From positions 1 to 64,000 of the forward strand of contig NZ_KQ758599.1 of the NCBI RefSeq assembly GCF_001457025.1: 64,000 nt of DNA, in the 5' to 3' direction. The translations under genes were made by a program, and so were the position numbers. How positions within the stretch are numbered: position 1 is the stretch's first letter; each line of letters starts with the position of its first letter. Below, piece by piece: positions 9,388-15,079 of the stretch. Below the pieces are notes generated by a model, which searched no databases, was not told the DNA's origin, and saw only the letters and a list, made by a program, of their open reading frames with translations. The stretch comes from Pseudarthrobacter enclensis (lineage in GTDB: Bacteria; Actinomycetota; Actinomycetes; Actinomycetales; Micrococcaceae).

Positions 9388-10653
9388 TCAGCTGGCCTTT
9401 GCGGCGTTGGCGGCCCGCTTCTGGGCCAGCCTGATTTCCAGGACCGCGTCCAGTGCCTGCTGGACGCGGTCCGCGGCTCCGGCTGCACTGAAGGCCTTCT
9501 GCGCTTCCTCAAGGTGCATCAGGGCTTCTTCGGACTCACCGGCGGCCTTGAGCGACTTGCCCAGCAGCAGTGAGACTTCACCGGCCGTGTGCTTGGCAAG
9601 CGAGGCGCGTTCTGCGTGGATTTCGCGGAGCTTTTCGACGGCGGCCACGATGTCCCCGGTCAGGTACAGCCACCTGGCACGGATGAAAGCCACCTCCAGC
9701 TGGTCCGACTTGTTGCCGCCCACGATGGACAGCGCCAGCTCGGCCCGTTCAATCGAGGACAGCGTCTCCGGTTCCACGATCCCCGAGGACAGCCGCACCG
9801 CCGCCGAGGCCTTGTTGAACCGGGCCCACAGTTCGATGTCGTTGGCGGGGGAGAGGAGCCGGGCTGCGCGCTCGTGGTGCTTGATCCCCTCCTGGTAGTC
9901 GTGGCGCATGAAGGCCACGTTGCCGATCACCCAGGCGACCTCGCCGGCCAGCTGGGACATCGAGTGCTCGTCCACATGGTCGTTCATCGCCTGGCAGTAT
10001 TTCCAGGCCTCGTCCAGCCGCCCGCTTTCAGCCAGCGCCCCGATCAATGCCCGGTGCGCACCGATGATGAGGGTCGAGCCCTTGGGCAGCTGCGAGCAGA
10101 GCTTAACGGCTTCCATGGCATGGTCCACCGCTGCGCTCAGCTGCCCCTGTCCCTGGCAGATGCCCGCGAGCATCTGGCGGGCACGGACGGCCAGGCCGGC
10201 CGACTCGGTGGCCATGGGGTGTTCCAGCAGGTGCTGCATGATGCGCTGGCATTCCTGCCAGTTGCCCTGCTTGATGAGGCACTCCGCCTGCATGTACGTC
10301 ATGTTCCACCAGGCACTGGTGTTGCGTCCGTCCAGCGCGATCTGCGCAGCCGTGGCGGCGTGGCTGGCAGCCAGCGGGTAGTCCCGCAGGTCCCAGGCCT
10401 GGCGGGCGTACAGGCCTGCCAGGACGTACTCGGCATCACTGACCGAAATGGGCTGGCTCCAGGCCTCCAGGGCCTTCGGTGCCAGTTCCAGCCTGCGCGC
10501 CAACTCCTCGATGACCTCGGCGGTCGGTTCCCGCCGGCCGGTCTCAAGCAGCGAGATGTAGCTGGGAGAATACAGGTCCTTGCCCAGTTCGGCCTGCGTC
10601 AGCCCCCGTTCGAGACGCTCCGCGCGGAGCTTCTCCCCGAATCCGTTGCCCAC
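9388..10653 (-). CDS. HTH-TPR transcriptional regulator, RRNPP-like (NprR/Rgg-type)
   Basis: A 421-aa protein with an N-terminal XRE helix-turn-helix (about residues 7-61, including TQAELGKDLYSPSYISLLETG) and about 340 residues of alpha-helical tetratricopeptide-like repeats. The HTH-plus-TPR layout and length match RRNPP regulators, closest in size to NprR of Bacillus (about 423 aa), whose TPR groove binds a short imported peptide. It lacks the IclR-like or ImmA-type C-terminal domains of RamB-like XRE proteins. The GTG start has a strong GGAGG site. The gene is divergent, across 134 bp, from a gene for a small secreted precursor with a duplicated octapeptide. This is the arrangement expected of a peptide-responsive regulator and its signal. 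The peptide link is inferred from context. Confidence 0.8.
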   Translation of the reverse strand: MGNGFGEKLRAERLERGLTQAELGKDLYSPSYISLLETGRREPTAEVIEELARRLELAPKALEAWSQPISVSDAEYVLAGLYARQAWDLRDYPLAASHAATAAQIALDGRNTSAWWNMTYMQAECLIKQGNWQECQRIMQHLLEHPMATESAGLAVRARQMLAGICQGQGQLSAAVDHAMEAVKLCSQLPKGSTLIIGAHRALIGALAESGRLDEAWKYCQAMNDHVDEHSMSQLAGEVAWVIGNVAFMRHDYQEGIKHHERAARLLSPANDIELWARFNKASAAVRLSSGIVEPETLSSIERAELALSIVGGNKSDQLEVAFIRARWLYLTGDIVAAVEKLREIHAERASLAKHTAGEVSLLLGKSLKAAGESEEALMHLEEAQKAFSAAGAADRVQQALDAVLEIRLAQKRAANAAKAS

Positions 10654-10787
10654 GGCGTTTCCTCCTCTTCCAGGACAGTCTTTTCACCAAATGCTTGACA
10701 GTCCCTGTGGAAAACATTTTACAATGTATGTCAACAAGGACTGTGCTGGCTTTGTAACGAATCCGACTCGTATTGAGGAACCTATTT
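10654..10787. promoter_or_regulatory. Divergent control region of the HTH-TPR gene and the peptide gene
   Basis: On the plus strand TTGACA (10695-10700) and TACAAT (10720-10725), 19 bp apart, form a promoter for the peptide gene. Three copies of a half-site surround it: GACAGTC at 10674-10680, GACAGTC at 10697-10703, and the inverted GGACTGT at 10738-10744. The outer pair extends to 11-bp arms with one mismatch (10670-10680 and 10739-10749). The middle copy overlaps the -35 box. TGTCAA at 10729-10734 is an inverted copy of TTGACA, and ACATT-N4-AATGT (10714-10727) is centred between them. This suits binding by the divergent regulator. Confidence 0.55.
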
Positions 10788-11012
10788 ATGTTGAAGAAGA
10801 TTGCAACCGCGGCCGTCCTGGCCGGTGCCCTTGCTTTTTCTGCTGCGGCCCCGGCCGTCCTTTCTGCCGGTTCCACCGCTGATTCCAACGGTACTTCGGT
10901 AGCCGTCGGTAACTGGCCTGACCCGATGTCCAAGAAGACCAAGGACACCAAGAAGGACACCTCCAGCACCAGCTACACCACCTACGTGGGTAACTGGCCG
11001 GATCCGATGTAA
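10788..11012 (+). CDS. Secreted 74-aa precursor with duplicated VGNWPDPM peptide (candidate signalling pro-peptide)
   Basis: The product starts with a Sec signal peptide (MLKK, then a hydrophobic Ala/Leu/Val stretch to about residue 26 with possible AxA-type cleavage). A short Ser/Thr/Asn region, VGNWPDPM (40-47), a Lys/Thr/Asp/Ser linker (48-66) and a second VGNWPDPM (67-74) at the exact C-terminus follow. Pro-peptides of RRNPP systems (Phr, NprX, SHP) release C-terminal 5-10 residue signals after secretion, so the octapeptide or a part of it is the likely signal. The two copies differ at three synonymous positions and no amino acid. GAGGAA lies 8 bases before the ATG; a strong terminator follows. 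I recognise no named family. A surface or antimicrobial peptide is the main alternative. Confidence 0.75.
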   Translation: MLKKIATAAVLAGALAFSAAAPAVLSAGSTADSNGTSVAVGNWPDPMSKKTKDTKKDTSSTSYTTYVGNWPDPM

Positions 11013-11036
11013 TAGCTTCCTCACCCAGGAGGCGCA

Positions 11037-11074
11037 GGCAGCCCCGGAGCATCCGCTCCGGGGCTGCCTTTTTT
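11037..11074 (+). terminator. Rho-independent terminator of the peptide gene
   Basis: GGCAGCCCCGGAGC (11037-11050) pairs perfectly with GCTCCGGGGCTGCC (11055-11068) around ATCC, followed by six T. This is the best intrinsic terminator in the window and shows that the peptide gene is a monocistronic unit. Confidence 0.93.
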
Positions 11075-11336: not shown

Positions 11337-13163
11337 TCAGACCAGGGAGTCCTTCCATGCCCCATGCAAGTCGGCGAAGCGGCCGCCGCCGCCAATGAGT
11401 TCGGCAGGGCTGCCGTCCTCGACGATGCGGCCATCGTGGACCACCAGCACGCGGTCCGCGGTCTCAACGGTGGAGAGCCGGTGGGCGATGATCAGGGCGG
11501 TCCTGCCGGCCGAGTCGGTGCCGGCGAGGAGCTGCGCCAGTCCATGCTGCACCAGCCGTTCCGAGGGGATGTCCAGGGACGAGGTGGCCTCGTCCAGGAT
11601 CAGCACGGCCGGGCGGGCGAGGAAGGCGCGGGCGAAGCTGATCAGCTGGCGCTGGCCGGAGGACACCCTGCCGCCACGCTTGTTGACGTCGGTGTCGTAC
11701 CCGTCCGGCAGCTGCAGGATGAATTCGTGCGCGCCCACCGCCTTCGCTGCCTCCTCGATTTCCTCGCGGGACGCCTCCGGCCGGCCCAGGGCGATGTTGT
11801 CCGCGACCGTGCCGCTGAAGAGGAACGCCTCCTGGGTGACCATGACGATGTTGCGGCGCAGGTCCGTGGTGCTGAGGTCCCGCAGGTCCACGCCGTCCAG
11901 GGTCAGCGAACCGGACGTGACGTCGTAGAAGCGGGCAATCAGTTTGGCCAGGGTGGACTTTCCGGCACCCGTCTGCCCCACCAGGGCCACCGTCTGCCCG
12001 GCCGGGATCTGCAGGTTCAGCCGCGGCACCACCACCGGCCCGTGGCCGTAGCGGAATTCCACTTCCTTGAAGTCGATGGCGCCCCTGGCGCCGGGCAGGG
12101 GCACCGGGTTTTTGGGCGGCCGCACGGTGGGAACCTCTTCCAGCAGGCCCGAGACCTTTTCGAGGGCCGCCTGGGCGCTCTGGAAAGAGTTGTAGAACAT
12201 TGCCATCTGGTCCACCGGCTGGAAGAAACGCTTGGTGGACAGGATCAGTGCAAGAAGCACGCCCACGGCCAGGTCGCCGGTGAGCACGCGGAACCCGCCG
12301 ACCAGCAGGACCACCGCCACGCAGACGTTGCCGATCAGCACCAGTCCCGGCTGGAAGATGCCGTTGAGGTTGATCGACCGGACCGTCACCTTGCGGTAGT
12401 CCTCGGCGAGCTGTCCGTAGGTTTCGGCGTTTTCGGGTTCCTTGCGGAAGGCCTTCACGGCGCGGATGCCGGTCATGGTCTCCACGAAGTGCACGATCAG
12501 CCGGGCGGACACTACCCGGGATTCCCGGAATGCGATCTGCGAGTGCTTTTGGTACCAGCGCGCCAGGAAGAACATGGGGACGCCGGCGGCCAGCACCAGC
12601 AGGCCGCTGCGCCAGTCCAGGGCGAAGACCGTAATGGCGGTGAACACCATGAACAGCAGCCCGGACGCGAGCGAGCTTACGCCGGAGTCGAGGAGTTCGC
12701 GGAGGGCCTCCAGGTCCGAGGTCTGCCGGGCAATAATCCTGCCGGAAGTGTATTTCTCGTGGAACTCCAGGCTGAGCCGCTGGGTGTGCCGGAAGACCCG
12801 CACCCGCAGGTCCAGGAGCATGGCCTGGCTGAGCCGCGCGGTGGAGGTGACGTAGAGGGCGGTGAGTCCCGCCGTCGCCACCGCCGCGAGGAGGTACGCG
12901 GCGCCGGTGAAGACCAGCGGCAGGTTATCGCCGGCCTGCAGCGCCGGGAGGGCGTGGTCGATCCCGAAGGCGATCAGTGCCGGTCCAGCCACCCTGGTTG
13001 CCTGGGAGAGGACCACCATGGCGATGGTCAGCCAGAACCTCAGCCGGACGGGGCGGATCAGCGAGCCGAGCAGGGCCAGTGAGCGGCGCCGGACTGCCCG
13101 GCTGTCGCTCTTGCTGAGGTGGGCGTTGTCCTCGTTGGCGGTGCCGAACGTTGCGGTACTCAT
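11337..13163 (-). CDS. ABC exporter half, catalytic-site subunit of a heterodimer
   Basis: A 608-aa protein with an ABC type-1 exporter membrane domain (six helices, about residues 40-320) fused to an ATPase domain (362-600). Walker A is G396-QTGAGKST, Walker B LILD524 is followed by the catalytic E525, and the switch His is 561. Its signature motif is degenerate: VSSGQ (500-504) instead of LSGGQ. The partner gene upstream shows the opposite pattern, so the pair should form a heterodimer with one working and one degenerate ATP site, as in TM287/288 and BmrCD. The start ATG overlaps the partner's stop (ATGA). The substrate is unknown: drugs, lipids or peptides. Confidence 0.92.
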
Positions 13164-14968
13164 CGGGTCACTTCCTCGGCCTGGTCTTCCAGCTCCGACA
13201 GTTCTGTGTCGAGGTCACGCGGCTCCTGGTCCAGGCTGGCGATGACGTACCGGTAGTGGGCGTTGCCTGCCAGCAGCTCCGTGTGCGTTCCCACGGCCGT
13301 GATCCGTCCGTCCTCCAGCAGGGCCACCCGGTCCGCCAGCGCCACCGTGGACGGGCGGTGGGCAACGATCAGGGTGGTGGTGTCCCGCAGGACCTCCCGG
13401 AGCCGGGCCTCCACGAGCTCTTCGGTGTGGACGTCCAGGGCTGACAACGGGTCGTCGAGCACCAGCACCCGCGGGCGGGCGGCGATGGCACGCGCCAGGG
13501 CGATCCGTTGCCGCTGGCCGCCGGAGAGGCTCAGCCCTTCCTCGCCGATCAGGGTGTCCACGCCGTCCGGGAGGGAGTAGGCGAAATGTGCCTGGGCAAC
13601 GTCCAGCGCCTCGCCCAGCACTGCGTCCGAGCGTTCACTGGCGCCCAGGAGCACGTTGTCGCGGACGGAACTCGAAAACAGCGTGGTGTCCTCGAAGGCG
13701 ACGCTGACCATGCGCCGCAGTTCCTGGACGTCGAAGTCCCTCAGGTCGACCCCATCGATGGTGATGGCGCCGTCCGTGACGTCGAACAGGCGTGGAACCA
13801 GCTGGATCAGGGCACTCTTGCCGCTGCCGGTGATGCCCACCAGCGCCATCGTTTCGCCGGGCCGCACCTCAAGGTTGACGTTGGCCAGGATCGGTTTGTC
13901 CGGGGCGTCCTCAAAGGCGAAGGATGCGTCGTTGAAGCGCAGCGCTCCGGCCAGGTGCCGGGGGCGGCTGGGCTGGGACGGGCCGGTGATGGTGTTTTCG
14001 GTGTCCATGACTTCGTAGTGGCGGTCGACGGCGGTCTTGGCCGTCAGTGCCATGGCGAGCAGCATGCCGGAGAACTCCACGGGGGAGGCGATGACCGCTG
14101 CCGTTGCGAAAAAGGCCACCAGCGCGCCGATGCTGAGCTGCCCGCCGGCGCACAGGATGATGCCGACCACCAGCCCGGCGCCGAGGGCAAGTTCGGGGAG
14201 CAGGGTGACCACCATCGTGAAGGTTGCCTGGTGGCGTGCCTTCTCGATTTCGGTCTGGCGGAGTTCCTCGGCCTGTTCGTTGAAGTTCTCCAGGGCCTCG
14301 CGGCTGCGCCCGAAAGCCTTCAGGACGCGGATGCCGTGGACCGATTCCTCCACGGTGGTGGCGAGGTCGCCGGCCTGGTCCTGGCTGCGCCGGGCCACCT
14401 TGCTGAAGCGGGTCCGGAAACGGAAGCTGTTGATGGTGATGGGCACGGCCGCGGCAAGGAAGATCAGGGCCAGCTGCCAGCTCATCCAGAACATGGCCGC
14501 GAGGCCGATGATCACGGTCAGGGTGGTCACCACCAGCATGATGGCGCCGAATGCCATCCAGCGCCGCAGGAAGTTCAGGTCCGTCATGGCACGGGAGAGC
14601 AGCTGCCCGGAACCCCAGCGGTCGTGGAAGGAGACGGCCAGTTCCTGCAGGTGGCCGTAGAGGGAGACGCGCATCCGGGTTTCCACCGTGGTGGCCGGGT
14701 TGATGACGAACTGCCGGCGCAGCGCCACCAGGACGGCTTCGGCGACGCCGAGGACCAGGATGACCCCGGCCGCGACCCACACCGCTTCGGTGGCGCCGCC
14801 GGGCTTCAGGGATTCGTTGACCAGGACCCGCAGCACCTGGGGGATGGCGAGGGCCACGATGCTGGCCAGCAGGGCGCACAGCAGGCCCAGCAGGAGCCTG
14901 GGGATGATGGGCCGGACATGGGGGTAGAGACGGCTGATTGACCTGAAAAATAGAGTTTGCTTCGCCAT
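13160..14968 (-). CDS. ABC exporter half, degenerate-site subunit of a heterodimer
   Basis: A 602-aa type-1 ABC exporter half with six membrane helices (about residues 20-310) and an ATPase domain (340-580). Walker A is GITGSGKS (378-385) and the signature LSGGQ (481-485) is canonical. The catalytic glutamate after Walker B is Asp506 (VLVLDDP), and the Q-loop reads AFED with Glu for Gln. Those changes mark the non-catalytic site of heterodimeric exporters, completed by the partner's VSSGQ. The start is placed at the ATG at 14966-14968 (MAKQTLFF); the open frame extends 25 codons further but without family similarity. It is first in the two-gene operon and has inverted repeats upstream that may be operators. 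Confidence 0.92.
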
Positions 14969-14995
14969 GCCCGCTTCTAAAGCTCTAAAACGAAT

Positions 14996-15016
14996 GTAGT
15001 TTCCCGTAGCAACTAC
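14996..15016. promoter_or_regulatory. Inverted repeat GTAGTT-N9-AACTAC before the ABC exporter operon
   Basis: Perfect 6-bp arms 28-48 bp upstream of the exporter start codon. TAGTTGC-type dyads are typical MarR-family sites, and MarR proteins often control such exporters. No MarR gene is in the window, so the link is inference. Confidence 0.35.
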
Positions 15017-15079
15017 CCTATGCCATCGCGTGAGGCGATTCACAGGGAAACGGTCCGCTTCGCAAGCTTGCTGACTTAT

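Follow-up and report, generated by a model that had tools for sequence, protein, structure and literature searches.

Does an actinobacterium use a gene-encoded peptide that is read inside the cell by a dedicated receptor, in the manner of the RRNPP systems? This question is raised by a locus of Pseudarthrobacter enclensis (assembly GCF_001457025.1, contig NZ_KQ758599.1, positions 1 to 64,000; this whole 64,000-nucleotide stretch is referred to as the window), at which a regulator with a helix-turn-helix (HTH) domain and tetratricopeptide repeats (TPRs) is divergent from a small precursor. In the literature excerpts available to us, actinobacterial signalling is mainly described through small molecules, such as gamma-butyrolactones. 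A first-pass annotation proposed an RRNPP-type pair, consisting of a 421-aa HTH-TPR regulator and a 74-aa precursor with a duplicated peptide, one copy being at the C terminus. The same open reading frames (ORFs) were recovered in the present study, and the linkage of the two genes, the octapeptide unit, receptor-peptide co-variation, and the agreement of fold and profile supported the proposal overall. We consider it likely that the locus encodes an actinobacterial peptide-pheromone circuit of the cytoplasmic kind, operating as RRNPP systems do. The regulator very probably senses the peptide of the precursor. An RRNPP-like mode of working has a high probability, and membership in RRNPP is putative. 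The earlier reading is right in substance and understated the breadth of the system.

A conserved octapeptide beside the regulator

The regulator matches HTH_31 at residues 5-64 and several TPR models, TPR_12 among them. The precursor is separated from it by 134 bp and contains VGNWPDPM twice, internally and at the extreme C terminus (Table 1). Its N terminus, two lysines followed by a hydrophobic stretch, resembles a signal peptide by a Lys/Arg and hydropathy criterion only.

Among named genomes, a scan detected 122 regulator relatives and kept 80; counts on named loci refer to these 80. The best relatives belong to Arthrobacter and Pseudarthrobacter (97-98% identity). A divergent precursor was present beside all 80 regulators, and the conservation of the peptide on which the first-pass annotation had staked its reading was found at every one of these loci. 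The precursor was also kept in all 24 genomes of the genus with a regulator match (L001-L024). The named precursors carried two copies (40 loci), three (23), four (14), or one (3), and 77 ended exactly at a copy. The called ORFs of three precursors (L129, L158, and L190) begin at an internal Met, so that their copy numbers are minimum values and they are truncated in the copy alignment.

In copies aligned on GNWPDP, identity within a precursor was 0.93-1.00 from position -1 to +6. Outside this core it was near background, at 0.29 within versus 0.35 between precursors at -2 and 0.38 versus 0.31 at +7. Because of this boundary on both sides, we take the conserved unit to be the octapeptide [VI]GNWPDP[MAV]. 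Identity at -1 was 0.97 within and 0.55 between precursors, and only 2/80 precursors had mixed residues at this position. At +6, M alone was found in 67/80 precursors, A alone in 8, and both M and V in 5. A single precursor thus tends to speak one dialect.

Across 208 octapeptide copies, the entropy of the G, N, P, D, and P codons was 0.00 and 0.02 bits at the first and second codon positions, compared with 1.15 bits at the third. A DNA-level repeat was ruled out because third codon positions vary and the peptide does not. Among 150 precursor pairs drawn, the ratio of nonsynonymous to synonymous substitution rates was below 1 in all 62 that were scorable (median 0.20). The GNWPD codon pattern occurred twice in the whole 4.23-Mb genome, both times inside the precursor ORF, and the reversed pattern gave counts of 0 and 1. 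A strict small-ORF rule applied to 461.5 kb of control DNA yielded secreted-like small ORFs with a Trp-Pro (W-P) pair at a rate of 0.015 per kb and strand; a looser rule admitted spurious frames (22 ORFs in the window). A chance or spurious ORF was ruled out by the linkage at 80/80 loci, the uniqueness of GNWPD in the genome, the control ORF rate, and coding selection.

Regulator matches were present in 168/295 genomes of the family at E 1e-3 or better, weak 1e-4 matches included. We read 110 of these loci, namely the 30 best matches and 80 chosen from the match list, mostly by score, with further listed matches, some of them HTH-less, left out; one receptor was counted at each of the two-receptor loci L087, L089, and L092. 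By fixed rules, a divergent W-P precursor adjoined 56/97 HTH receptors, or 57 with L109, which was recognised by eye and fails the strict rule. With L109 included, linkage by identity to the window regulator was 44/44 at 60% or more, 6/7 at 54-60%, 4/14 at 48-54%, 1/26 at 40-48%, and 2/6 at 30-40%. The expectation of the first-pass annotation that a precursor sits beside each homologue therefore held for the 80 named orthologues kept and for family loci at 60% identity or more, but not for 40/97 HTH loci of the family; precursor linkage belongs to part of the family. Peptide cores in the family included GNWPDA, GIWPD, VWIWPD, GEWPH, GDWPH, GWWPN, GDWPN, NNWPY, GSWPF, and GIWPY, often at the extreme C terminus.

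Receptors without a precursor (L052-L061, L065, L067-L084, and others) sit in several places on the tree. The tree count for this label compares them with the HTH-less group alone and carries no information on the frequency of linkage loss. These 40 receptors may be listeners to the signals of others, or may have another ligand. In addition, TPR-only receptors of approximately 350 aa, which lack the HTH, form one group on the tree (support 100/99): L085, L086, L087, L089, L092, L094, L098-L100, L102, L103, L106, and L110. A divergent W-P precursor was found beside 13/13 of those read. They raise the question of what a minimal TPR pheromone receptor acts on. In one genome, a GGDEF-EAL gene that also matches HAMP weakly comes after tandem HTH-less receptors (L089:4330-5928), and a link to cyclic di-GMP is conceivable there.

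Receptor, operator-like site, and proposed circuit

Co-variation was analysed in 79 distinct receptors of the 80 (one identical sequence was dropped), and the label at -1 was taken from the last copy. Residues 127 and 132 were I and W whenever the last copy starts with V, and M and L whenever it starts with I or T, in 79/79 receptors. The V/I state changes three times on the FastTree phylogeny. Four of 420 columns (127, 132, 165, and 167) change on all three switch branches; the expectation for independent and equal columns is 0.011. In the structural model, they map to the ends of helices 112-129 and 152-169 and to the start of helix 132-144. We regard this co-variation as the best sequence evidence that the TPR domain would read the peptide. 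The M/A variation at +6 showed two switches, with no receptor column tracking it cleanly, and was not used.

The AlphaFold2 model of the regulator (28 rows) had a mean predicted local distance difference test score (pLDDT) of 91.8 and a predicted template modelling score of 0.78. Among the matches listed by VIA-align, Rap proteins scored Z 21.6-24.1 and AimR about 20. In a profile search of 177,635 PDB sequences, PlcR was the best match (E 7.8e-12, profile positions 3-214). The asparagine N245, on helix 233-249 of the model, is kept in at least 90% of the 28 rows, and its column is invariant in 15 rows. A conserved asparagine anchors the peptide backbone in a phage Rap (N226; PMC11343458; papers are cited by PMC number), and N245 may or may not be its counterpart.

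The first-pass annotation gave the precursor its own promoter, and TTGACA and TACAAT are indeed strongly conserved over 73 distinct intergenic regions, as are TTTTACAATG and TGTCAA. A simple promoter scan of the region found no promoter because the two boxes are 19 bp apart. TTTACAATGTATGTCAA forms an imperfect inverted repeat that spans the -10 box, and the sole exact match of TTKACAWNNNWTGTMAA in the genome lies at the pair. The template TTGACAANNNTTGTCAA scored at least 10 at 56/57 precursor-linked HTH loci, 16/40 HTH loci without a precursor, 1/13 HTH-less loci, and 6/446 control regions, which were taken upstream of ORFs of at least 250 aa in any frame, spurious frames included. These scores are descriptive because the template comes from the same loci and the controls are unmatched for base composition. 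The informative part of the test is the rarity of the site beside HTH-less receptors. The repeat at 16 of the precursor-less loci could be expected if these receptors eavesdrop. The position of the putative site over the -10 box suggests repression of the precursor, which appears to be the likelier sign of control.

With one mismatch allowed, one further operator-like site was found in the genome (L295:1501-1517; C3:252721-252737 in the genome itself), upstream of a gene for a secreted trypsin-like protease; the reversed control pattern also gave one match. The protease is encoded in 3/31 genomes of the genus, including that of the window. Of the loci of the two other protease copies, one has a 12-point site (L297) and the other a weaker 10-point site; whole loci were searched, and chance is possible. 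The protease is a lead as a candidate regulon member.

The proposed circuit is built on what sequence analysis shows: the linked pair, coding selection on the octapeptide, co-variation, the conserved promoter with its operator-like site, and the RRNPP-like fold. The 74-aa precursor would be exported by Sec. Signal peptidase and extracellular proteases would then release the octapeptide [V/I]GNWPDP[M/A], usually several copies per precursor, which would re-enter the cell through an oligopeptide ATP-binding cassette (ABC) importer, for which the genome has candidates, and bind the concave TPR groove of the regulator. The regulator, probably a dimer, would sit on TTTACAATGTATGTCAA. In the simplest circuit, the unbound regulator would repress the pheromone gene and the peptide would release it, giving positive feedback; the sign and any density dependence are presumed.

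Several observations weigh against this circuit. In the copy alignment, positions +8 to +15 are somewhat alike within a precursor (0.34-0.60 versus 0.14-0.22; 65 pairs), which may reflect similar spacers or the next copy. The 40 HTH-bearing family loci without a linked precursor are, with one exception, below 54% identity. The operator template was drawn from the loci it scored. Foldseek places LGN first and PlcR eleventh, and MalT domain III (Z 26.4), APPBP2 (27.5), and APC/C subunits outscore Rap; because generic TPR proteins score as well or better, the fold alone cannot single out RRNPP. The profile score of PlcR derives in part from the common HTH, the next chain being an HTH repressor, and the regulator sequence used singly matches PlcR no better than E 0.085. 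Pfam and NCBIfam matches up to E 1 included none to a model that carries the name of an RRNPP subfamily, the library content for such models being unchecked. Finally, co-variation rests on three switches only, and two of the three branches also show changes in columns 155, 164, and 166. Because of these columns, a recombined tract could also explain neighbouring changes. The linkage and the co-varying residues might then represent one tract exchanged between lineages rather than binding, and the adjacency of the two genes fits such an exchange. However, the matches at residues 127 and 132 are perfect over 79 receptors and three switches. Moreover, the copies do not appear to be simply homogenised as DNA tracts because agreement within a precursor is high at -1 and not at -2. 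We consider recombination in place of binding to be very unlikely.

The precursor may instead be a secreted effector, such as a short repeat antimicrobial or envelope peptide, the expression of which is controlled by the regulator in response to some other cue. Not every secreted repeat peptide is a signal, regulators are often found next to genes for secreted products, and the exact operator-like pattern is confined to the pair. However, an effector accounts poorly for an 8-residue core that is kept between flanks near background, for cores that vary within an xWP theme, and for receptor TPR residues that follow a peptide residue. The HTH-less paralogues, which have no HTH for DNA binding, also keep a linked precursor. 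An effector is improbable in our judgement. A further alternative accepts that the receptor binds the peptide and regards the loop as self-sensing, a timer, or a sensor of protease or importer activity rather than a population signal. The genomic evidence is all on the receptor-peptide pair and none is on density dependence, and 13 SBP_bac_5 proteins above the cut-off in the genome, which are candidates for oligopeptide importers, could couple the loop to nutrition. Against this, the precursors read, apart from the three named ones called from an internal start, have signal-peptide-like N termini, and RRNPP systems with this layout mediate cell-to-cell signalling (PMC9765709). We attach a small but real probability to such a private loop. 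A pheromone circuit read by the regulator is the interpretation that we prefer and carry into the comparisons below.

Related pairs in other actinobacteria

In a search of the order, 23/347 genomes matched at 1e-10; three were outside the family of the window, all in a single family (f17). A relative was found in 7/119 f17 genomes at 1e-15. At the eight f17 loci, VGGSWPT repeats were present in three, an SDTWPA end in one, and no accepted precursor in four. In a search of the class, 24/394 genomes matched at 1e-8, 18 belonging to families not yet on the list, and a W-P precursor adjoined the regulator at 10 of these 18 loci.

In the family designated f38, the regulator was present in 21/22 genomes. 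A divergent mini-precursor ended in WP[VTG]MCC at 6 loci and in CC without W-P at 14, and none was found at one locus on a short contig; the 14 were found after the W-P rule failed, and the criterion is post hoc. Mini-precursors of 40-43 aa that end in Cys-Cys beside HTH-TPR regulators were observed in an actinobacterial family at L266-L285. The C-terminal CC hints at a disulfide or a modified peptide.

In another family (f37), the regulator was present in 44/249 genomes. Among 30 loci read, a secreted small ORF with one to six copies of [DE][IVTL]xWP was found at 14 and not at 16. This motif was chosen after examples had been seen, and a precursor was accepted on either side of the regulator; its scan gave 0 matches in 400 kb of the P. 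enclensis genome and 1 in 102 kb of other actinobacterial loci. This family appears to be Streptomycetaceae because two of its matches coincide with plasmids of Streptomyces sp. RerS4 and Kitasatospora sp. NBC_01266.

Matches to the f37 regulator were present in 37 plasmid records, and 13 of these were read. A W-P precursor was nearby on six: those of Streptomyces spp. NBC_01006, NBC_00239, and Mut1, S. parvus, S. globisporus C-1027, and Kitasatospora NBC_01266. In NBC_00239, S. parvus, and C-1027, the precursor is separated from the regulator by an acyl-carrier-protein gene, and other neighbours include nonribosomal peptide synthetase, ATP-grasp, and Streptomyces antibiotic regulatory protein genes. 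In S. finlayi (L332), an annotated small ORF ends in DWP with no clear signal stretch and was not counted. Six plasmid regulators of the f38 type (L287-L292) had no such precursor on reading. The only plasmid record that matched the window regulator itself was the NBC_00239 relative (26% identity). Shared descent of the plasmid pairs with the window pair is likely, and only likely because the plasmid regulators are this distant. A search of 50,697 phage records at E 1e-6 gave no relative of the regulator, and with the 26% plasmid relative as the only other match, an origin of the locus from a mobile element was rejected.

Plasmid SGLP1 of S. globisporus C-1027 (NZ_CP013739.1, L330:6816-9236) carries an HTH-TPR regulator and a precursor with two VEWP copies, annotated as the hypothetical WQO_RS36200. 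StrR-like and AraC-like genes, 25 bp apart, are located 5.7 kb from the regulator. They are likely to be sgcR1 and sgcR2 of the enediyne C-1027 cluster because the gene pair fits the description in PMC2657911, in which an XRE-family gene, sgcR, is also named. We hypothesise that the VEWP pair has a role in C-1027 control.

The recurrence of these pairs, some near Streptomyces antibiotic genes, suggests a peptide language in a group with hardly any described. We speculate, with somewhat less than even confidence, that actinomycetes as a class use gene-encoded pheromones with a W-P core, read by HTH-TPR receptors and by minimal HTH-less TPR receptors, and that these help to time Streptomyces antibiotic clusters, including that of the enediyne C-1027. 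As part of this tentative whole, the dialects would be GNWPDPM in relatives of Arthrobacter; GNWPDA, G[EDI]WP, and GWWP in other Micrococcaceae-like genera; VGGSWPT in another family of the order; [DE]I[GDES]WP and VEWP in Streptomycetaceae; and WPxMCC and xCC elsewhere. A peptide code that is readable from sequence, together with its receptor, offers testable cell-cell signals for soil actinobacteria, perhaps including Streptomyces, and short synthetic peptides might switch silent Streptomyces antibiotic clusters.

Features of the locus and comparison with known systems

The features of the locus are listed in Table 1. The first-pass annotation had placed a terminator after the precursor, and a hairpin with a 15-pair stem and a T-run is located there. 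One hairpin was found in the 3-kb region against 2.1 expected in shuffles; because shuffles give that many by chance, the terminator reading rests on the position of the hairpin and its stem. The pair is flanked on the precursor side by a tRNA-Pro gene, and on the other side by a gene that we take, by eye, to be purC-like. Just past the tRNA-Pro gene (window 11337-15043, minus strand), two adjacent ORFs resemble, also by eye, ABC exporter half-transporters.

Table 1. Sequence features of the regulator-precursor locus (window coordinates)
Feature	Position	Strand	Basis
HTH-TPR receptor/regulator, 421 aa, GTG start	9388..10653	-	ORF, domain, model and profile evidence
Shine-Dalgarno-like purine stretch of the regulator	10659..10669	-	Sequence inspection
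-35-like TTGACA of the precursor promoter	10695..10700	+	Conservation
Candidate operator TTTACAATGTATGTCAA, imperfect inverted repeat overlapping the -10 box	10718..10734	.	Conservation and genome pattern search
-10-like TACAAT, 19 bp from the -35 box	10720..10725	+	Conservation
Shine-Dalgarno-like GAGGA of the precursor	10775..10779	+	Sequence inspection
Putative pheromone precursor, ATG start, 74 aa (to 11009) and stop	10788..11012	+	ORF, conservation, codon evidence
Signal-peptide-like N terminus (KK, hydrophobic stretch), end approximate	10788..10868	+	Hydropathy criterion only
Octapeptide copy 1, VGNWPDPM	10905..10928	+	Conservation, codon evidence
Octapeptide copy 2, VGNWPDPM, extreme C terminus	10986..11009	+	Conservation, codon evidence
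Intrinsic-terminator-like hairpin and T-run	11036..11069	+	Hairpin scan

In reference RRNPP systems, the receptor has 250-500 aa and the adjacent propeptide gene encodes 10-100 aa at a gap of -50 to 191 bp (PMC10075063). The 421-aa TPR receptor, the divergent 74-aa propeptide, and the 134-bp gap fall within these ranges. The propeptide has a basic N terminus, a hydrophobic stretch (by hydropathy only), and a C-terminal peptide. Rap, NprR, and AimR are among the 50 top structural rows and PlcR is best by profile, a resemblance that is not specific. In the available excerpts, a study that ran seven RRNPPA profiles against 13,513 complete bacterial genomes reported Firmicutes genera, all but one within Bacilli (PMC9765709). 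A survey of RRNPP systems covered Firmicutes and viruses and described actinobacterial signals as typically small molecules (PMC10075063), and RRNPP is treated elsewhere under Gram-positive bacteria and Firmicutes (PMC13220807). TPR is among the bioinformatic matches in some actinobacteria, with no peptide pheromone pair shown in the excerpt (PMC4748050). We found neither an actinobacterial RRNPP-type pair nor such peptide motifs described in the accessible parts of the open-licence PMC literature, preprints and subscription papers being outside this scope.

PlcR-PapR of the Bacillus cereus group shares the N-terminal HTH, the C-terminal TPR receptor, and a small secreted precursor, and gave the best PDB profile match. 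In contrast, its PDB chain has 293 aa instead of 421 aa, and the present system has octapeptide repeats with a W-P core and an actinobacterial host. NprR-NprX of Bacillus also combines an HTH with a long TPR array, and the model aligns with NprR (5dbk) over residues 1-390 (Z 22.4, root-mean-square deviation 5.0, 325 residues). However, NprR consists of an HTH, a three-helix bundle, and TPRs, and Rap has an N-terminal three-helix bundle (PMC9765709). The first-pass annotation had given the regulator the layout of NprR, which was not borne out: the layouts differ because helices 59-66, at the end of the HTH, lead straight into TPR helix 71-88 and leave no room for the bundle in the model.

Rap-Phr of Bacillus and its phages (including Phr105 and Phr3T) is similar in the TPR receptor fold and in multi-copy precursors, which may carry several pheromone copies, up to 8 having been reported (PMC11343458), and differs in that the window regulator has an HTH. 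Among the HTH-less receptors, the L098 model (347 aa, pLDDT 90.6, helices from residue 14) has no room for the N-terminal three-helix bundle of Rap; among the matches listed, most Rap rows scored Z 21.7-24.3 and aligned from Rap residue 39-42 on. The arbitrium system AimR-AimP likewise has an HTH-TPR peptide receptor (Z about 20), whereas the window system is chromosomal and lacks the phage relatives searched for above. Gamma-butyrolactone and related signalling in actinomycetes is intercellular, actinobacterial, and often tied to antibiotic production; unlike the peptides described here, these signals are small molecules made by enzymes and are not gene-encoded (PMC10075063, PMC4748050). As far as our searches of the available literature show, the lineage, the peptide code, and the minimal HTH-less receptor are new, and the mode of working is that of the known RRNPP systems.

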